Shown here: positions 34,585 to 42,494 of the stretch, piece after piece
Layout: every line of letters begins with the position of its first letter
Position numbering within the stretch: position 1 is the stretch's first letter
Source: Ectothiorhodospira shaposhnikovii
GTDB lineage: Bacteria; Pseudomonadota; Gammaproteobacteria; Ectothiorhodospirales; Ectothiorhodospiraceae
Reading direction: 5' to 3'
DNA: 64,000 nt
Assembly: GCF_022227765.1 (NCBI RefSeq)
Contig: NZ_JAJMLZ010000007.1
Span: 186,001 to 250,000 of the forward strand
Translations under genes and position numbers: made by a program
The notes under the pieces: model-generated
Told to the model about the DNA's origin: nothing
What the model saw: only the letters and a program-made list of their open reading frames with translations
Database searches by the model: none

Positions 34585-37500
34585 TCAGAATTTACCGTAA
34601 TACCCTTCCTTCAGGGCATCGTAAAGATTGGCGGCGTTGTGGGTCTCGCCGTCGTATTCGATTTCTTCGTTGCCCTTGGCCAGCACCACGCTGCCGTCTT
34701 CCAGCACGAAGCGATAGGTGGTGTTCTCCAGATCCTTTTCCTTCACCAGCACGCCCTGGAAGGCCTCCGGGTTGAAGCGGAAGGTGGTGCAGCCCTTGAG
34801 CCCCTGCTCATAGGCGTACATGTAGATGTCCTTGAAGTCGTCGAACAGATGGGCCGTGGGCACGTTGATGGTCTTGGAAATGGACGAGTCGATCCACCGC
34901 TGTGCCGCCGCCTGCACATCCACATGGGCCTTGGGATCGATCTCGTCGGCGGTGATGAAATACTCGGGCAGTTGGGCCTTGGGGTCTTCCGCATAGGGCA
35001 TGGCCTCGGGATTGACCAGGTGCCGGTAAGCCAGCAGCTCGAAGGAGTACACATCCACCTTTTCCTTGGTCTTCTTGCCGGAGCGGATCACGTTGCGGGC
35101 ATAGTGATGGGCGAACGAGGGCTCGATCCCGTTGCTGGCATTGTTGGCCAGAGACAGGGAGATGGTCCCCGTGGGCGCGATGGAAGTGTGGTGGGTAAAG
35201 CGGCAACCCTGGGCCGCCAGGGACTTCACCAGCTCAGGGTCCACCTGGGCCACCTGCTGCATGTAACGGCTGTAGCGGGCATGCAGCACCTTGCCCTTGA
35301 TCCTGTCGCCCACCTTGATGCCGTCCTGCTCCATTTCCGGGCGCAGGCGCAGCATGGTGGGGGTCACCTCGAATTCTTCTTCCATGATGGGCGCCGGCCC
35401 CTTCTCCCGAGCCAGGGACAGACCGGTGCGCCAGCCCGACAGGGCCATCTCCCGGGTGACGTCCTCGGTGAAGCGCAGGGATCTTTCCTCGCCGTACTTC
35501 ATGCCCATCATGGTGATGGCGGAACCCAGCCCCAGATAGCCCATGCCGTGGCGGCGCTTGCGGATGATCTCCTCCCGCTGCTGGGGCAGTGGCAGGCCGT
35601 TGATCTCCACCACGTTGTCCAGCATGCGGGTAAAGACGGCGACGGTCTCCCGGAACTGTTCCCAGTCGAACCGGGCCTTGGCGGTGAAGGGCTCGCGCAC
35701 GAACTTGGTGAGGTTGATGGAGCCGAGCAGACAGTTATGAACAACCACGCCGTTCACCACCAGCGTATGGGTGGAATATTCCTCGATGTCATACACCGTT
35801 TGCTCACCCATGGCGGTGATGGCCTCAATTCGGGCGACATGGTCTTCCTTGGGTGCCCGCCACCGCTCCTTGCCAGCCAGCAGGGATTCCAGCTTTTCCT
35901 GCTTGGTGGTGTTGAAAAGGAATCCGATATACCGATAAAAACGATAAGCATCCTGATGCTGCAGGCAAAGTGTGTAGAAGGCGTTGCCTCTGGAAACGGA
36001 CGCCATGATGGTCCCGTGAATCCCGAAATTCAGCAACAGAAGCTGGATGTCCTGCAACCACTCCCGAGAGGCAGAAGTCAGACGGATATTGAGCTTTTCA
36101 GTGTCGATGCTGCCATCGGCGCAGAACACGGCCGTCAAAAATGATGCCTGCTTGGCAGAGTCCGCACGCCAGATCCGCTCCGGCACCCGCACTTGGCGGG
36201 AGCGATAATCCTCCAGGCCCAGATTAGATTTCAGGTTCTCGATAGCGGAAGCACGATAGCAAGCCAGAGAGTACACATTGCGTGCCTGCCCCGTATACGC
36301 CTGACGCAGCGTACCTGAAGTCCCTGTCATGGCAGCAAACTGCGGCGCAATTGTCTCCATGGCCACATCGTCCTGATCGCTGAACAACACGCCTGCCGAA
36401 TGGGTAAGCCATCCATCGGCCAGTAACCAGCCGTAGGTTGCATACTCCAGATCCAGGGCATAACGATCCATGGTCGGCATCTGCAGGGCCAGATCGGGTA
36501 GCAGCACCCGGTACGTCTCCTTGCGGTGACGACTGATGCGCACAGGCTCATGGGTCAGGCGCTTGATGGCCTCGGCAAGCGCCTCACAAACGACCCGCTC
36601 ACCATATGCCGCCGGCTTGTCCTTGTAGCGGCCGGCGGTCAACTGAGCGGCATGGACATAACCTTCCACCGCCCGCAAGGGGGCCAGAGACAGATCCAGA
36701 CGATCAATCTCTTCCATCAGTGGGTGGTAGCGGGATAGCTGAAGCCCCTTGGGACTTTCCTGATAATTCACCTTGAGCTGATCCAGCAAGGTGCGTAACA
36801 AAGCCCGCCGGGACTGACGGGTCACCATCAACTGATCGCCGGTGTAAGTCTGCAGGAGGTATTTCAGGGCGCCCAGGTAAAAGGGGTCCGCCAAGGAGAG
36901 ATGGGACAGTTCCCGGGCCTGCACGTGGACAAGACTGCCCACATCAAGTTGGTCCACCCGACGCCAGCCATCGGGTGTGTATACCTGATGATCCGCGGTC
37001 AGTTCGATACGCTGACCATTGTCGAAGCGAACCTCGAACACCTCGCGGGTTCCGTTTTCAACCAAGGTACAGGGCCTCAGGTCCGTCTTCTGCCCGGAAA
37101 ACACATCATCCACGGCCACTTTCAACGCCTCGCCTTGCTGCACCAAGGCAAAGGCATCCTCGGTGCGAATGAGGCCGAAATTGGTATTCAAACGCATATC
37201 GCCAGTCCAGCATGCCCCATAAGGAGGTAACGGCTGCTCGCCGCATGGGTTCGTCGCCCGGATCTGCTCGCACCACCAGTTGTTGTTCATCTCATTGACC
37301 TTGTCGATGAGCACGAAGCCCGGCTCGGCATAGTCATAGGTGGAGGTCATGACCACGTTCCACAGCTTGCGGGCCGGCAGGCGTCGGTAGATGCGGCAGG
37401 CCACCAGGCCGTCATTATTGGTGATGTAGTCGGCGGGATCGGGCCAGTCGCGCCACAGCACCTGCGCCGGATCATCCAGGTCGATGCCGTCCTGCTCCGC

Positions 37501-38220
37501 CTCCTGCAGGGTCATGGGGAAGGCCAGGGGCCATTCGGCGTCATCCTTCACCGCCTGCATGAAATCGGCGGTGATGAGCAGGGAGAGGTTGAACTGGCGC
37601 AGGCTTCCGTCCGCTCGCTTGGCGCGGATGAAGTCCACCACGTCCGGGTGACCGATATCGAAGGTGCCCATCTGCGCGCCACGCCGCCCCCCGGCGGAGG
37701 AAACGGTGAAGCACATCTTGTCGTAGATATCCATGAACGACAAAGGCCCGGAGGTATAGGCACCGGCACCAGAGACATAAGCCCCACGGGGACGCAGGGT
37801 GGAAAAGTCATAGCCGATGCCGCTGCCCGCCTTCAGGGTCAGGCCCGCCTCGTGGAGCTTCTGCAGGATGTCGTCCATGGAATCATGGATGGTGCCCGAC
37901 ACGGTGCAGTTGATGGTGGAAGTGGCGGGCTTGTGCTCCCAGGCGCCGGCATTGGCAATGATGCGGCCGGCCGGGATCGCCCCCTGGCGCAGGGCCCAGA
38001 GGAACTTGCCGTACCATTTCTCCCGCAGCTCGGGGGTGGCCTCCACATCGGCCAGGGCCCGGGCGATGCGCTTCCAGGTATCGTCCAGGGCCTGATCCAG
38101 AACCTCTTCGGTGCGGGTCTTGAGACGGTACTTCTTGTCCCAGATGTCCAGGGAGGCCGGCTGCATCGGCACTTCCCGTGAAGATGGATTCGCAAGGGCT
38201 TGTTCGGCCTGGGATTTCAT
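34585..38220 (-). CDS. nrdJa: adenosylcobalamin-dependent (class II) ribonucleotide reductase NrdJa with intein
   Basis: 1211 residues including an intein of 493 residues (337-829). The mature enzyme (718 residues) reduces ribonucleotides with a B12-derived radical. STINC (C105) is a redox Cys; NPCGEQ (C326) holds the radical Cys; the split motif GA|CLLGS contains the partner redox Cys (residue 830). The C-terminus after the intein is the standard NrdJ barrel (FTHHTSIAPTGTISL and so on). AAGGA precedes ATG 38220. NrdR-like boxes and a promoter lie upstream. nrdJb is downstream. Confidence 0.95.
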   Translation of the reverse strand: MKSQAEQALANPSSREVPMQPASLDIWDKKYRLKTRTEEVLDQALDDTWKRIARALADVEATPELREKWYGKFLWALRQGAIPAGRIIANAGAWEHKPATSTINCTVSGTIHDSMDDILQKLHEAGLTLKAGSGIGYDFSTLRPRGAYVSGAGAYTSGPLSFMDIYDKMCFTVSSAGGRRGAQMGTFDIGHPDVVDFIRAKRADGSLRQFNLSLLITADFMQAVKDDAEWPLAFPMTLQEAEQDGIDLDDPAQVLWRDWPDPADYITNNDGLVACRIYRRLPARKLWNVVMTSTYDYAEPGFVLIDKVNEMNNNWWCEQIRATNPCGEQPLPPYGACWTGDMRLNTNFGLIRTEDAFALVQQGEALKVAVDDVFSGQKTDLRPCTLVENGTREVFEVRFDNGQRIELTADHQVYTPDGWRRVDQLDVGSLVHVQARELSHLSLADPFYLGALKYLLQTYTGDQLMVTRQSRRALLRTLLDQLKVNYQESPKGLQLSRYHPLMEEIDRLDLSLAPLRAVEGYVHAAQLTAGRYKDKPAAYGERVVCEALAEAIKRLTHEPVRISRHRKETYRVLLPDLALQMPTMDRYALDLEYATYGWLLADGWLTHSAGVLFSDQDDVAMETIAPQFAAMTGTSGTLRQAYTGQARNVYSLACYRASAIENLKSNLGLEDYRSRQVRVPERIWRADSAKQASFLTAVFCADGSIDTEKLNIRLTSASREWLQDIQLLLLNFGIHGTIMASVSRGNAFYTLCLQHQDAYRFYRYIGFLFNTTKQEKLESLLAGKERWRAPKEDHVARIEAITAMGEQTVYDIEEYSTHTLVVNGVVVHNCLLGSINLTKFVREPFTAKARFDWEQFRETVAVFTRMLDNVVEINGLPLPQQREEIIRKRRHGMGYLGLGSAITMMGMKYGEERSLRFTEDVTREMALSGWRTGLSLAREKGPAPIMEEEFEVTPTMLRLRPEMEQDGIKVGDRIKGKVLHARYSRYMQQVAQVDPELVKSLAAQGCRFTHHTSIAPTGTISLSLANNASNGIEPSFAHHYARNVIRSGKKTKEKVDVYSFELLAYRHLVNPEAMPYAEDPKAQLPEYFITADEIDPKAHVDVQAAAQRWIDSSISKTINVPTAHLFDDFKDIYMYAYEQGLKGCTTFRFNPEAFQGVLVKEKDLENTTYRFVLEDGSVVLAKGNEEIEYDGETHNAANLYDALKEGYYGKF
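35734..37212 (-). mobile_element. intein with LAGLIDADG-type homing endonuclease domain in nrdJa
   Basis: The insert splits the NrdJ motif PPYGA|CLLGS. It starts with Cys (CWTGDM), ends VVVHN and is followed by Cys, satisfying class 1 protein-splicing rules. Block B is ELTADHQVYT (TxxH). Two dodecapeptide-like motifs are GWLLADGWL (residues 597-605) and LTAVFCADGSI (694-705), about 100 residues apart, as in LAGLIDADG endonucleases; both keep the acidic residue (D602, D702). The frame is intact, so both activities may survive. Base composition is AT-richer than the host gene. Confidence 0.93.
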
Positions 38221-38239: not shown

Positions 38240-38328
38240 ATACAACTTGTTGTGCCCTGCAGAATGCATTAGCACAACATAGGGGAATTTCGTGGGGAAA
38301 GACTAGCCCCTGGGCGGGAGAAATTCAA
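38240..38328 (-). promoter_or_regulatory. nrdJa promoter with two NrdR-like boxes
   Basis: On the minus strand TTGAAT (38328-38323), a 17-bp spacer and TAGTCT (38305-38300) form a plausible promoter. Downstream lie two 16-bp boxes, at 38286-38271 and 38255-38240, offset by 31 bp. GCACAACAAGTTGTAT matches the NrdR consensus at about 11 of 16 positions; the other box is weaker. Paired boxes at about three helical turns are the hallmark of NrdR control of ribonucleotide reductase genes. Binding itself is inferred. Confidence 0.6.
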
Positions 38329-38362
38329 GCTGGAAAGTCGGAGGGGAATGGGCTACGGCGCA
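38247..38362. repeat. 116-bp direct repeat, copy 1 (nrdJa promoter)
   Basis: This segment recurs at 42328-42443 with an offset of exactly 4081 bp. I count 12 mismatches over 112 aligned bases, none of them in the 46 bp containing the promoter core (38291-38336). Similarity stops at 38362 on this side. Confidence 0.9.
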
Positions 38363-38378
38363 GCCGATTGTTAAACCC
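38363..38378 (-). other. possible truncated attC half-site
   Basis: On the minus strand GTTTAACAATCGGCTG starts with GTTTAAC, which fits the R'' consensus RYYYAAC of attC sites, and continues into a CGGCTGCGCCG palindrome that overlaps the repeat edge. No matching R' (GTTRRRY) was found downstream, so it may be a broken end site of the yefM-yoeB cassette. Confidence 0.3.
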
Positions 38379-38419
38379 TTAATCGTACATTATCCTGTAC
38401 ATGATAAACATCTTGTACA
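38368..38419 (+). promoter_or_regulatory. yefM-yoeB promoter and operator
   Basis: TTGTTA (38368-38373), 17 bp, TATCCT (38391-38396) form the likely promoter. CGTACA (38384), TGTACA (38396) and TGTACA (38414) lie with 12- and 18-bp offsets. TGTACA is the core motif bound by the YefM-YoeB complex in E. coli, with a 12-bp spacing, so autorepression is expected. Confidence 0.6.
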
Positions 38420-38429
38420 GGAGCGCCCC

Positions 38430-38681
38430 ATGGATGCCATCAGCTACACAGCCGCTAGAACCAACCTGGCAAAAACCATGGAACGGGTCTGCGAAGACCA
38501 TTCTCCGGTGATCATCACCCGGAGCAAGTCGCAGTCCGTGGTCATGATCTCTCTTGAAGATTATGAAGCGTTGCAAGAGACTGCATATCTCCTGCGCGCA
38601 CCAAAGAACGCCCGTCGTTTGCTGGAATCCGTCGCCGAACTGGAGCAAGGTGGCGGCCAGGAAAAGGGGCTTCTTGAATGA
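38430..38681 (+). CDS. yefM: antitoxin of the YefM (Phd/YefM) family
   Basis: 83 residues. The N-terminal DNA-binding domain (MDAISYTAARTNLAKTMERV, then HSPVIITRSKSQSVVMISLEDYEAL) is characteristic of YefM; the C-terminal 20 residues bind the toxin. It overlaps yoeB by ATGA. Unlike the other genes of this accessory block it is on the plus strand with its own promoter, as toxin-antitoxin cassettes in integrons often are. Confidence 0.93.
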   Translation: MDAISYTAARTNLAKTMERVCEDHSPVIITRSKSQSVVMISLEDYEALQETAYLLRAPKNARRLLESVAELEQGGGQEKGLLE

Positions 38682-38932
38682 AACTTATCTTCTCCGAAAA
38701 CGCCTGGGAAGATTATCTGTACTGGCAGAAAACCGACAAAAAGCTCCTGAACCGAATCAACAAACTGATCAAGGAGACAAAACGAGAACCGTTCGAGGGC
38801 GTCGGCAAACCAGAGCCCCTCAAACACAGTTTCGCTGGTTACTGGTCCCGCCGAATTAACGACGAGCACCGCATGGTCTACAAGGTTACGGATGACGCAT
38901 TGCTCCTTGCCCAGCTCCGGTACCACTACTGA
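38678..38932 (+). CDS. yoeB: YoeB family mRNA interferase toxin
   Basis: 84 residues with the RelE-fold signatures of YoeB: FSENAWEDYLYWQKTDKKLL, GKPEPLKHSFAGYWSRRI and a C-terminal HY. YoeB cuts mRNA in the ribosomal A site. Residues equivalent to the catalytic Glu (E in NDEHRM), Arg and His are kept, so it should be active. The stop codon touches the attC-like site at 38932. Confidence 0.94.
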   Translation: MKLIFSENAWEDYLYWQKTDKKLLNRINKLIKETKREPFEGVGKPEPLKHSFAGYWSRRINDEHRMVYKVTDDALLLAQLRYHY

Positions 38933-39021
38933 TTTAACGTTGAGGTTCACCGGAGGCAAAAAGCATAGTGAGGAACGAGCGGCGCTGCTTTTTCTGTCCG
39001 TGTGAAATTGCCTTGTTATGC
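38932..39021 (-). repeat. attC-like recombination site (site A)
   Basis: On the minus strand it begins GCATAAC (39021-39015) and ends GTTAAAT (38938-38932), fitting R'' and R'. Between them CGGACAGAAAAAGCA and TGCTTTTTGCCTCCG form an imperfect hairpin. The length of 90 bp is normal for attC. It lies just after the 133-residue gene. Confidence 0.7.
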
Positions 39022-39028
39022 GATTTAT

Positions 39029-39430
39029 TCATCTCGTCGCTTTCCAGACTTTAAAGGGAATCCATACAATAACGCGCAGCAATATATATATTAGCGTGAT
39101 AGGAAAAAATATAATGGCTAGCACTATCAATATCTTTTCCAGTGGTTTCGCTTCACTTGCTACTTCACCATCTTCTGCATTCCATTCCTCTTCTTCATAG
39201 AACAGCCTTCCGCCAAACATATCTTTTACATTTACCAGCGCAGAAAAGACTGAATCCGGAATTTTTCCTTCGCATCGAATCTCATAAGATGATTCATCGA
39301 AAAAAACCATAAATTCGCACTCAACAGACTTTTCTATAATGCTCTTATGTGCGAGATTTGCTTCCTTTTGAAACATCGTACATGCCTCTTCATAGTGTTC
39401 AGGCACTCTAATTGATACTACTTGGCTCAT
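39029..39430 (-). CDS. hypothetical protein with C-terminal membrane segment (gene cassette)
   Basis: 133 residues, AT-rich codons unlike the flanking core genes. MSQVVSIRVPEHYEEACTMF and the next 90 residues look soluble and acidic; PLEKILIVLAIIFFPITLIY (about 96-125) is a membrane segment followed by basic residues. No family recognised. The ATG is 14 bp after a GTTATGC recombination junction and the stop abuts an attC-like site, the layout of an integron cassette. Confidence 0.7.
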   Translation of the reverse strand: MSQVVSIRVPEHYEEACTMFQKEANLAHKSIIEKSVECEFMVFFDESSYEIRCEGKIPDSVFSALVNVKDMFGGRLFYEEEEWNAEDGEVASEAKPLEKILIVLAIIFFPITLIYILLRVIVWIPFKVWKATR

Positions 39431-39443
39431 ATACCTACTTTAC

Positions 39444-39711
39444 GCATAACGCCGCCAGCACGCGCGACTTTGTAGTGAAGGCGAAGCCGAACCTTACCGT
39501 GACCCGGACAGCGCGCCAATCGGCAACGCTTGGCGTGATGAGGCAGAAGTCAGCAGACGGCATAGTAGCCAAACGCTCACCGTAATGGGTGAGACACGGT
39601 GAAGGTCACCACGGTTGCATGGTCCTTTGAACTCCGGAGGAAACGCCCCGTGCGGACTCGCATGCGGGGTGTTGTGGAGGCCGGGAGAGAAAAACCCCCG
39701 GTTATCTGATT
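39444..39711 (+). mobile_element. truncated group IIC intron remnant inside an attC-like site
   Basis: At 39642-39673 the plus strand folds like intron domain V: AACGCCCCG and CGGGGTGTT pair over 9 bp, a TG bulge follows, then TGCG/CGCA closed by GACT. The catalytic triad would be CGC, as in IIC introns. A domain VI-like hairpin with a bulged A follows to GATT (39711). GGCAGAAGTCAGCAGACGGC (39542) resembles sequence before intron ORFs. No reverse transcriptase is left. The left end, 39444-39450, is GCATAAC, part of an attC. Orientation is opposite to the cassettes, as known for IIC-attC introns. Confidence 0.5.
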
Positions 39712-39715
39712 AAAA

Positions 39716-40336
39716 CTACCACAGCACCAGCCCCCGCGCTCCTGACGAAAAGTTCTTTGAAAACTCCCAGAAACGATCAAAGCTTCCTTCAAATTGCCAG
39801 TTTATGCCGTCGGCTCCCGGGAATCCCTGCTGTAGCAAGGAGTAGAACTCGATCGCGTCAACGTCTACTGGCATTGAATGAAATACGACCTTTCCTGGGG
39901 AAACATAAACGTTGTGGCATCCATTCTTGCGTGGAGTTCCGTCACGCTTCGTTGGAGAAGCGACAGAGGATAGGGTAGCCACATCCACTAGCCACGTCTG
40001 GGAAAGTAGATTTGGGTTCTTTTTTAGCTCCGCCGTGTTGCCCACCAAAGGGAAGGCATAAAACACGGAGCGAACTTGACCCTTAACCTGAGTGCGCAAG
40101 GCGACAAGTTGATCATGGGGTGCAAGAAATACCCGCTTCTTTGACCTCAGGACACGGTTGGACGCCTTGAACTGAAAGATAAGCAAGCGACCACCAAGCT
40201 TCGTACAGGCATCAAAGCCAGCTCTTGCCTCCTGCTTCTGAGTTAGCCCAAACCAAAACAGCTGTTGGTTTGACCCCACATGTTTCGAGGCTTGAGCGCA
40301 AATATTAAGTTCTAGGGTCTTTTCTGAAAGCTTCAT
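39716..40336 (-). CDS. hypothetical protein (gene cassette)
   Basis: 206 residues, beginning MKLSEKTLELNICAQASKHV behind AGGTGG. No membrane segment or recognised domain. Segments such as RLLIFQFKASNRVLRSKKRV and NPNLLSQTWLVDVATLS suggest a globular alpha/beta protein, with some resemblance to nucleic-acid enzymes that I cannot substantiate. The start lies about 28 bp inside the attC-like junction at 40365; downstream is the intron remnant. Confidence 0.65.
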   Translation of the reverse strand: MKLSEKTLELNICAQASKHVGSNQQLFWFGLTQKQEARAGFDACTKLGGRLLIFQFKASNRVLRSKKRVFLAPHDQLVALRTQVKGQVRSVFYAFPLVGNTAELKKNPNLLSQTWLVDVATLSSVASPTKRDGTPRKNGCHNVYVSPGKVVFHSMPVDVDAIEFYSLLQQGFPGADGINWQFEGSFDRFWEFSKNFSSGARGLVLW

Positions 40337-40358
40337 GCCACCTGAACTTCCCCGTGAG

Positions 40359-40440
40359 TTCTAACGCCGCGCACACCAGCGCGAGCTTGCGAGCGTCCGA
40401 CAGCCGAAGGCTGTGTAGTGCTGCGCTTGGTTATGCCTAA
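40359..40440 (-). repeat. attC-like recombination site (site C)
   Basis: 82 bp. It begins GGCATAAC (the TIR gene's TAG stop touches it) and ends GTTAGAA at 40365-40359 on the minus strand, matching R'' and R'. Arms AACCAAGCGCAG... and ...GCGCGGCGTT with an inner CAGCCTTCGGCTG hairpin form the folded site. Confidence 0.8.
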
Positions 40441-41252
40441 ATCTGCACATCGTAGCCTGCCGCCTTGAGTTCACGAATGATACTGTAAGCTTGCTCATCT
40501 ATAGAGCCCCCAACTTTTTTGTAAACAAGCCCGCTTAAATCACTGGGTATTGCGACCTCACCTTTGTGCAGACAGCATACCCGTGAACGTCCAAGTCTCC
40601 CGACAAAATACCCAAACTCGAATATCACGTTTGGTCTTGCTCGTTTTTCTAAGTCCCTCTCCTGCTCTGGAAGGCCTAACTGAGTAATAGTGTAGGCAAC
40701 TTCGTCGGGCGTAAGTAAGATAAACGCATAACCTACATCTGCATGCTTTTCGAATTTTTCAATTATCGTTGCGCCTTCATCTACTTGACGATGCAACACC
40801 ACTGGCTCCAAGCCAATTTCATGCAGAAACCTTTCGATGTCCGCTTTCAACTCCGAGTCGTGCCCATGGACGACAAAGACTCTATTGGATAATGATGCTG
40901 AACGATGTGTTGTAATCGGCCCAGCTAGCTCCCCGTATACATCAGACTCTAGTGCAGTTCGAGTAAGCTCAAGCGCTTTTAGTAGATTTGATTTAGCACT
41001 TTCGAATTGTTCTGGCCCATTTCCCTGGGTATAAGCCGACGCTCCCTTTGCCACAAGTGCTCGTGCGGGAGATGAATCTTTGCAAATCCGGTCGACGGTA
41101 TTGCGTGATCTCGTCTTCCACGCGAGCCAATCTGGCGTGTCTGTTCCTCCGTACTGACCAGGGTAGCTGGCATCAGGCTGGCAGAAGTTGGACCAATTAA
41201 ACTTCTGGCCCTCCTCTATGAGGTTGTCGATAAGTTTTATTTCACTATCCAT
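40437..41252 (-). CDS. TIR-domain nucleotide-binding protein (CAP12/Pycsar-type TIR fold, gene cassette)
   Basis: 271 residues from ATG 41252 (a GTG at 41258 would add two). The C-terminal half (about 125-250) matches the bacterial TIR-like family of predicted nucleotide-binding proteins: VFVVHGHDSELKADIERFL, VDEGATIIEKFEKHADVGYA, FILLTPDEV and RPNVIFEFGYFVGRLGR with the likely catalytic Glu. Related TIR domains degrade NAD+ in anti-phage systems. The N-terminal half is helical and unassigned. No cyclase partner is present, so it is not a complete CBASS. It is an integron cassette. Confidence 0.85.
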   Translation of the reverse strand: MDSEIKLIDNLIEEGQKFNWSNFCQPDASYPGQYGGTDTPDWLAWKTRSRNTVDRICKDSSPARALVAKGASAYTQGNGPEQFESAKSNLLKALELTRTALESDVYGELAGPITTHRSASLSNRVFVVHGHDSELKADIERFLHEIGLEPVVLHRQVDEGATIIEKFEKHADVGYAFILLTPDEVAYTITQLGLPEQERDLEKRARPNVIFEFGYFVGRLGRSRVCCLHKGEVAIPSDLSGLVYKKVGGSIDEQAYSIIRELKAAGYDVQI

Positions 41253-41283
41253 ATTCACTATATTTCTTCTTGGCTAGTAAAAG

Positions 41284-41391
41284 GCATAACGCTGTTGTAA
41301 CTGGACCAAATTGCGGGGCAGTTTTGTGTTCGCTGCGCTCATAACACAAAACCGCTCCGCAATTTGGTTCCGGCTTACAACTTTGTTATGC
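41284..41391 (-). repeat. attC-like recombination site (site D)
   Basis: 108 bp with long pairing arms. On the minus strand GCATAACAAAGTTGTAA pairs with TTACAACAGCGTTATGC, and CCAAATTGCGG...CCGCAATTTGG plus TTTTGTGTT...AACACAAAA continue the stem. This is a textbook imperfectly palindromic attC. Confidence 0.88.
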
Positions 41392-41415
41392 ACCTAATGA
41401 ACACCTCGACATAAA

Positions 41416-42045
41416 CTATTGCCCCCATAATATAGGCGGCTGCCCTGCTGGCCTATTCGCGATATTACAATAATCTATAGCTTCTAATAAGCTTGGGGGG
41501 AAGTTCATATGGGACGTATTTGCATCAAATACCCATTTAAAATATTCCATTACAAAAGTTCGCAACACCCTAACGCTGAAATACCATTGCTCATCAACAG
41601 TAACTCCGGGCAAGTCCTCGTGAAAAAAATAGCTGTACCAATTTGACTCCATACCCGAATGAACTTCGTCTACAATTCGCTTCTTCGCAGCCTTCTCATC
41701 AAGCCTAAAGTGTTTGCTTCCATTGACAATATCACGTACAACTCCCAATACAATTTTCATTTGCATTGGGAGTTTATTCCAGTCTCTTTTTGTCCTGGAC
41801 TGGCATTTTGGGTCATCACTTTTCTTCCAATCGTGGTAGAGATGCCAAGCAGTTACAAAGAAATTGAAGGCGTCATAAATTTCAAATCCCTGCTCCAGTC
41901 TGTTTGATTCAAAAATCAACTTCCGATAAAGATCGTTACTGTCTCTCAACCAAAAAATCGGACCTTCATTCGGAGTTGACAATTTAACCATAGCCGATTT
42001 TATCTCTCTAACCTTGGCGGGAGGCTCAAAATTTTGAGCTTGCAT
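41416..42045 (-). CDS. hypothetical protein (first gene cassette)
   Basis: 209 residues, soluble, rich in aromatic residues (WHLYHDWKKS, FPPSLLEAIDYC). The NGSKHFRLDEKAAKK segment is seen in uncharacterised bacterial proteins, but I cannot name a family. The ATG lies inside the GTTATGC that forms the recombination junction (42048-42042), and the stop is 25 bp before attC site D. Codon use is AT-rich. Confidence 0.65.
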   Translation of the reverse strand: MQAQNFEPPAKVREIKSAMVKLSTPNEGPIFWLRDSNDLYRKLIFESNRLEQGFEIYDAFNFFVTAWHLYHDWKKSDDPKCQSRTKRDWNKLPMQMKIVLGVVRDIVNGSKHFRLDEKAAKKRIVDEVHSGMESNWYSYFFHEDLPGVTVDEQWYFSVRVLRTFVMEYFKWVFDANTSHMNFPPSLLEAIDYCNIANRPAGQPPILWGQ

Positions 42046-42327
42046 AACAGTATATTATGCCCGCGTCGTCAGTATTGGTATTAACCCGGCAATCAAATAA
42101 ATTAATTGACTTCGTTTTTAATCTTCAAAAAATCAGCAGCTTATAACAGGCGATACAGACATGAATGGTTGCCGGGTTAATAATAGTGCTGTCATGGCCT
42201 ACTGTCTGAGCAGAGTTATACTCAATTCCGGTGTACGGGAGTGGGGAGGCAGGGTGGCGTATTCTGTTGACTGATCACGTCCAATATCTCAACTGGTCGA
42301 TGACTGCCTGCCCCTCGCGCACACTAT
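42046..42327. other. AT-rich region upstream of the cassette array
   Basis: No gene is seen. It holds a 14-bp inverted repeat (42079-42092 and 42169-42182) and separates the first cassette from the second copy of the nrdJa promoter repeat. A full attI site or integrase gene is not present. Confidence 0.5.
42079..42182. repeat. 104-bp element bounded by 14-bp inverted repeats
   Basis: TATTAACCCGGCAA at the left and TTGCCGGGTTAATA at the right are perfect inverted copies. The interior is AT-rich with no matching inner arms. It could be a MITE-like element or a degenerate attC. Confidence 0.55.
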
Positions 42328-42443
42328 TTGTTGTGCTACGCAGAGAGAATTAGCACAACATATGGTACTTTCGTGGGGAAAGACTAGCCCCTGGGCGGGA
42401 GAAATTCAAGCTGGAAAATCGGCGGGGAACGGGCTACGGCGCA
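42328..42443. repeat. 116-bp direct repeat, copy 2 (orphan nrdJa-type promoter)
   Basis: Counterpart of 38247-38362. On the minus strand it keeps the TTGAAT (42409-42404) and TAGTCT (42386-42381) elements and NrdR-like boxes at 42367-42352 and 42336-42321 (the second extends 7 bp beyond the repeat). GCACAACAAATAGTGT matches the NrdR consensus at about 13 of 16 positions, better than copy 1. It points toward the cassette genes. Confidence 0.88.
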
Positions 42444-42444
42444 C

Positions 42445-42481
42445 AAAAAAATGCCCCTCTCCCCGACCGGGGAGAGGGGCA
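42445..42481 (-). terminator. htpG terminator
   Basis: TGCCCCTCTCCCCG and CGGGGAGAGGGGCA form a 14-bp perfect stem followed on the minus strand by TTTTTTT, 13 bp beyond the htpG stop. Confidence 0.92.
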
Positions 42482-42494
42482 CCGGGCAGCACCC

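Follow-up and report, generated by a model that had tools for sequence, protein, structure and literature searches.

The 64,000-nucleotide stretch of DNA analysed here (the window), from the purple sulfur bacterium Ectothiorhodospira shaposhnikovii, contains the genes htpG and nrdJ, separated by an integron-derived array of gene cassettes that is bracketed by two copies of the nrdJ promoter. A repeat search identifies these copies as the dominant direct repeat in the window, 38242-38362 (copy A) and 42323-42443 (copy B), 121 nt long at an offset of 4081 and with 88% identity; genome-wide, the repeat occurs exactly twice, the second copy with E = 5.9e-39 and hence not by chance. Read from htpG, the order is the htpG terminator, copy B, a ~275-bp leader, four open reading frames (ORFs) in the same direction, an inverted YefM-YoeB toxin-antitoxin pair, copy A and nrdJ. 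The features are listed below; a caret (^) marks an integron integrase cut point.

34585-38220, minus strand: nrdJ, adenosylcobalamin-dependent class II ribonucleotide reductase, with an intein
38242-38362, minus strand: copy A of the nrdJ promoter, immediately ahead of nrdJ; -35 at 38323-38328, -10 at 38300-38305, boxes at 38272-38287 and 38240-38255
38360-38376, minus strand: attC stump of the toxin-antitoxin cassette, GTTTAACAATCGGCTGC, running into copy A
38430-38932, plus strand: inverted toxin-antitoxin cassette, YefM (38430-38681) and YoeB (38678-38932), last in the array
38935-39023, minus strand: attC4, GCATAAC...G^TTAAAT, ending exactly at the start of the toxin-antitoxin cassette
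39029-39430, minus strand: cassette 4, 133 aa, no family
39512-39710, plus strand: ORF-less group II intron, with a D1-D4 part (RF01998, 39512-39607) and domain V (RF00029, 39641-39710)
39716-40336, minus strand: cassette 3, 206 aa, no family
40359-40438, minus strand: attC2, GCATAAC...GTTAGAA, recognised by sequence layout and matching arms, folding not significant
40437-41258, minus strand: cassette 2, 273-aa TIR protein, Pfam CAP12-PCTIR_TIR, PADLOC candidate defence family PDC-S35
41284-41391, minus strand: attC1, 108 nt, GCATAAC...GTTATGC, a strong hairpin (z -7.7)
41416-42045, minus strand: cassette 1, 209 aa, no confident family
42047-42048, minus strand: putative attI-like crossover point G^TT, up to which this genome and its sister species are alike and beyond which they differ
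42048-42322, minus strand: leader, with an IS256-family end remnant (~42214-42292), an insert resembling a miniature inverted-repeat transposable element (MITE; 42070-42191) and the attI-like end AATATACTG^TTATGC
42323-42443, minus strand: copy B of the nrdJ promoter, next to the htpG terminator and reading into the cassette array; -35 TTGAAT at 42404-42409, -10 TAGTCT at 42381-42386, NrdR-like box 1 at 42353-42368 and box 2 at 42321-42336
42450-42483, minus strand: htpG intrinsic terminator, a 15-pair stem with a T run, between htpG and copy B and the native left neighbour of the promoter

Each copy of the repeat is a promoter of the TTGAAT-17 bp-TAGTCT type on the minus strand, followed by two palindromic boxes 16 bp apart. 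The same layout, with both downstream boxes, precedes nrdJ as a single promoter in the other Ectothiorhodospira compared, which bears out the identification of the segment as a duplicated nrdJ promoter in an earlier note made from the sequence alone. Copies A and B differ at 12 positions over 116 bp (the note's mismatch count was right, its aligned length of 112 too short) and at 14 over 121 bp; their longest mismatch-free run, 49 bp, spans the -35/-10 core, which the note had also described as free of mismatches. Neither copy has an Rfam match to a riboswitch or other RNA.

The DNA between the copies was noted earlier as AT-richer and cassette-like; it contains 47.3% G+C, against 64.5% in the rest of the window, and is a cassette array without an integrase. 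An attC-like site follows each of the four forward ORFs, in keeping with a cassette array, for which at least two attC sites (RYYYAAC/GTTRRRY-type ends, imperfect hairpin) are expected in one orientation, each after an ORF; attC1 is clear, and attC2 and attC4 are assigned by layout and arms. A strict attC finder gives no match and a looser one recovers only attC1 plus chance matches, so that the second to fourth sites rest on layout and comparison; the cassette borders are confirmed by comparison with two relatives. Cassettes 1, 3 and 4 have no Pfam or PADLOC matches, and a plasmid search with the island DNA returns only the toxin-antitoxin genes among the records listed. The leader contains an insertion sequence (IS) end, whose assignment to the IS256 family was made by eye from the transposase sequence, and includes the MITE-like insert with inverted repeats, which the leader of the sister species lacks. 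This MITE-like insert, of ~105-120 bp with inverted ends TTAACCCGGCAA..., has a similar sequence in the array of another relative, G009 (L127 16955-17060).

The genome holding the window (G000) was compared with a sister species (G002) and with other relatives, among them G003, G004 (E. lacustris A-7Y) and G009. The sister species matches G000 on the left (htpG, copy B and leader) and on the right (YoeB-YefM, copy A and nrdJ), and its cassettes are entirely different. Agreement holds on the left up to AATATACTG^TT and on the right from CG^TT(A/T)AATCAG; because the two genomes differ exactly from the integron integrase cut points, the cassettes have been exchanged in place, swapped at G^TT between constant flanks (the G002 array is split over two contigs with 110 bp in common at the group II intron, and their join is inferred). 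The island is thus no fixed block: its whole cassette content differs in the sister species. The G000 cassettes are found nowhere else in the genus, and only the group II intron recurs. The leader end AATATACTG^TTATGC resembles AATATACTG^TTATAT, found at the attI position of the G009 integrase, a likeness of only ~13 bp.

The origin of the right-hand end is recorded in G009, where the same inverted YefM-YoeB pair (L127 15705-16340) belongs to an attC array, at a distance of some kilobases from an integron integrase. There, the toxin-antitoxin cassette starts with GCG^TTAAATCAG, as in the window, and ends in a complete attC starting TTTAACAATCGGCTGC; there, homology to the window stops, and in the window the promoter begins. 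In the window, this attC is cut after ~17 nt (GTTTAACAATCGGCTGC) and continues into copy A, the stump and the promoter sharing a 3-bp microhomology, TGC. YefM-YoeB is thus the last cassette of the array, and at its right end the island was most likely joined illegitimately within the attC of this cassette. The native sides of the promoter are split between the copies: copy B keeps the junction with htpG (TTTTTTTGTGC-GCCGTAG, partly kept also by G003 and G004), and copy A keeps the junction with nrdJ. The passage from the terminator T run to the promoter likewise occurs in G004 and in part in G003. At the left join, copy B meets the leader, made of the IS-element end and the attI-like end, and the sequence that preceded these has been lost. 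Relatives of the kind that the earlier note had proposed to look for exist: in these, only one promoter separates htpG from nrdJ, and the cassette array is absent. The htpG-nrdJ gene order is shared by E. haloalkaliphila and E. marina. E. lacustris (G004) has a different insertion at the same htpG/nrdJ-promoter site (L102 5640-6935), with a gene of membrane/glutaredoxin type by eye, and the htpG-nrdJ intergenic region seems to be an insertion hotspot.

Copies A and B pair with each other, to the exclusion of the promoters of G003 and G004 (bootstrap 93), and on these sequences the duplication is younger than the split from those promoters. Between G000 and G002, promoter identity is 98% for A-A and B-B and 88-89% for A-B, and the duplication therefore predates the split of the two genomes at this locus. 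Ten changes are unique to B and one to A. Copy A is thus the closer to the empty-site sequence, a comparison suggested in the earlier note, and copy B is an old local duplicate, not one derived from a distant species, in line with the second of the two origins offered there. One core base is T in both copies of G000 and G in copy A of G002 and in G003 and G004; the shared T could reflect gene conversion between A and B or a chance mutation.

The locus also bears traces of transfer between species. G003 has the toxin-antitoxin pair and one promoter, this promoter and nrdJ being its own, and no cassettes; its identity to G000 is 97.8% in htpG and 96.2% in the toxin-antitoxin genes, against ~87-88% elsewhere and 85% at the promoter. 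G003 probably gained the left part by homologous recombination, and the array was then lost or never present. The sequence left of YoeB in G003 is GGCGACAATCGGCTCCGCC; between the htpG terminator and YoeB (L101 3825-3870), CGCCGTAGGCGACAATCGGCTCCGCCAGCACG repeats the attC start from the far side of the toxin-antitoxin genes and is possibly the scar of a deleted array. Identity in G002 similarly peaks at the island flanks, less clearly than in G003, and that of htpG and nrdJ is raised in G004 too (94.9% vs 89.1%); since flank identity in G002 thus partly reflects gene conservation, the case for recombination rests mainly on G003. Homologous recombination, invoked in the earlier note, hence holds as a means of spread, as the htpG of G003 indicates, and fails as the origin of the repeat.

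The elements of copy B are intact. NrdR accepts a box spacing of 14-17 bp (PMC12051234), and in both copies the boxes lie 16 bp apart, as suits an NrdR-controlled promoter, for which two palindromic boxes about three helix turns apart are expected near the transcription start; an intact NrdR gene is present in the genome. The -35 and -10 of copy B are unchanged in both G000 and G002. When the boxes are scored with copy A taken as the ancestor, its state being shared by G003 and G004 (in a test that used a spacing of 32), the score of copy B rises from 20 to 23-24 of 32; three to four changes are gains and none is a loss (P 0.0001-0.0015 if changes were random). The 49-bp identical run among 14 differences has a probability of ~0.006 in G000; G002 gives only a 38-bp run, with a probability of 0.075, and conservation of the core by itself is therefore not compelling. 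No terminator is predicted on the minus strand from copy B to the end of the array.

These observations are probably best explained by illegitimate insertion of a truncated integron into the nrdJ promoter, which would have left ~120 bp of the promoter at both ends. On the right, the toxin-antitoxin cassette would have been broken inside its attC and fused with copy A through the shared TGC; on the left, the leader with its attI-like point would have come to follow copy B. Both copies keep a native position: copy A would still drive nrdJ, and copy B, behind the htpG terminator, would now read into the array as a cassette promoter repressed by NrdR at high dATP. Later exchange of cassettes would have taken place at two points, the attI-like one and the beginning of the toxin-antitoxin cassette, presumably through an integrase that acted in trans or has since been lost, and the locus would have passed between species via recombination in htpG and nrdJ.

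The same end product would arise if the promoter had first been duplicated in tandem and cassettes had entered between the copies later, and it fits this order that A and B are older than the cassette exchange between G000 and G002 (98% vs 88-89%). Such a history is unlikely, given that it requires two events, that copy A starts exactly at the truncated attC with its 3-bp microhomology, as if join and duplication were simultaneous, and that none of the nine relatives has tandem nrdJ promoters and no cassettes. About equally improbable is the first of the two origins offered in the earlier note, in which homologous recombination with a related carrier strain brought in the island together with a promoter of its own, so that A and B come from different strains. 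It would account for the peaks of identity on either side of the island in G002 and G003, as well as for the pairing in G003 of a G000-like htpG and toxin-antitoxin pair with its own promoter and nrdJ; however, A and B group together to the exclusion of G003 and G004, the duplication is merely shifted to another strain and left unexplained there, and the right join, a truncated attC on a promoter, looks illegitimate rather than homologous. An AT-rich block with direct repeats at both ends could also be a transposon or integrative element whose target duplications or attachment sites measure ~116 bp. This is highly improbable: no integrase or transposase gene lies between copies A and B, the content consists of exchangeable cassettes, and both ends are truncated known sequences (the IS256-type end with the attI-like leader on the left, the attC stump on the right). 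Transposon or prophage ends were accordingly rejected for lack of a recombinase in the interval, and the view that the repeat is not a transposon target duplication, already expressed in the earlier note, stands.

Copy B most likely acts as a cassette promoter. That it is an NrdR-controlled one, with boxes sharpened by selection, so that the array would be switched on when deoxynucleotides fall, is a tentative proposal. A comparably doubtful alternative makes copy B a passive relic of the insertion, its core intact for want of time and the array silent or served by cassette-borne promoters; the ten unique changes in B and the identical-run probability in G002 would fit a relic, but every box change in B keeps or improves the NrdR match, the -35 and -10 are constant in both species, and no terminator precedes the array. 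Several points weigh against the insertion and its sequel as set out above. No parental sequence is known for the left join, which leaves the right join as the main basis of the insertion model; the folding of attC2 and attC4 does not surpass that of shuffled sequence; the faster change of copy B than of A is also compatible with a relic; and the NrdR consensus used for scoring, ACACWATATATWGTGT, is an assumed one. As to present-day cassette exchange, no intact integrase is known in the draft assemblies of G000 and G002: the island holds no integron integrase (TIGR02249) beside the attI-like end, and the rest of G000 offers just one copy with an internal deletion, at a contig end (C1), along with below-cut-off fragments. 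The deleted integrase (L121 7398-8378; G000:C1:537.4-538.4k) has an attI-like sequence and a possible cassette alongside, and G000 probably contains a second integron there.

The group II intron, oriented opposite to the cassettes, lies within or next to the attC of cassette 3, its ends being approximate; it scores 62 bits with RF01998 (cut-off 35) and 36.4 bits with RF00029, below the cut-off of 40. Further copies or pieces of the same small intron occur in G000 (C3, C6, C7 and C35) and on many G002 contigs, and such dispersed copies probably break the assemblies. Group IIC-attC introns (PMC7923331; PMC8876359) likewise sit in cassette arrays in the orientation opposite to the cassettes; the intron here differs in that it has no intron-encoded protein, is only a candidate for class C, and has several related genomic copies. 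The nrdJ intein, with a LAGLIDADG domain (window ~35756-37185), is present in G000 and G002, a divergent intein occurs in G003, and none is found in G004 or the other genus genomes compared.

The component parts of the locus are of known kinds; their combination, and so clean a natural record of its formation, are unusual. The array is of the CALIN kind, a cluster of attC sites lacking an integron integrase (PMC7923331), with several attC cassettes, one of them a toxin-antitoxin cassette, a group II intron and no integrase nearby, but it retains an attI-like end and stands between two copies of a housekeeping promoter, one of them aimed inward. Integron promoters normally lie upstream of attI, at 223-252 bp in class 1 (PMC8876359), and the start of copy B similarly lies ~330 bp upstream of the attI-like point and is directed into the cassettes; unlike the Pc promoter of an integron, copy B duplicates the nrdJ promoter, NrdR boxes included, and there is no intI. 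The Pseudomonas aeruginosa nrdJ promoter (PMC4409342) is likewise a class II ribonucleotide reductase promoter with two NrdR-like boxes in a genome with an NrdR gene, whereas here a second copy stands away from nrdJ, ahead of foreign genes. In the literature searched, three papers mention both integrons and NrdR; judged by title and abstract, none of them appears to describe such a link.

Integrase-less cassette arrays are common, and whether and how their genes are expressed is largely an open question. Here, an array lies behind a copy of a well-studied host promoter whose intact original, 4 kb away, provides an internal control. If copy B is active, an integrase-less array can acquire a regulated promoter by insertion alone, and cassette expression would be tied to nucleotide levels. 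Were NrdR control to hold, exchangeable genes, the TIR candidate defence gene among them, would be induced, e.g., during phage replication or DNA damage.

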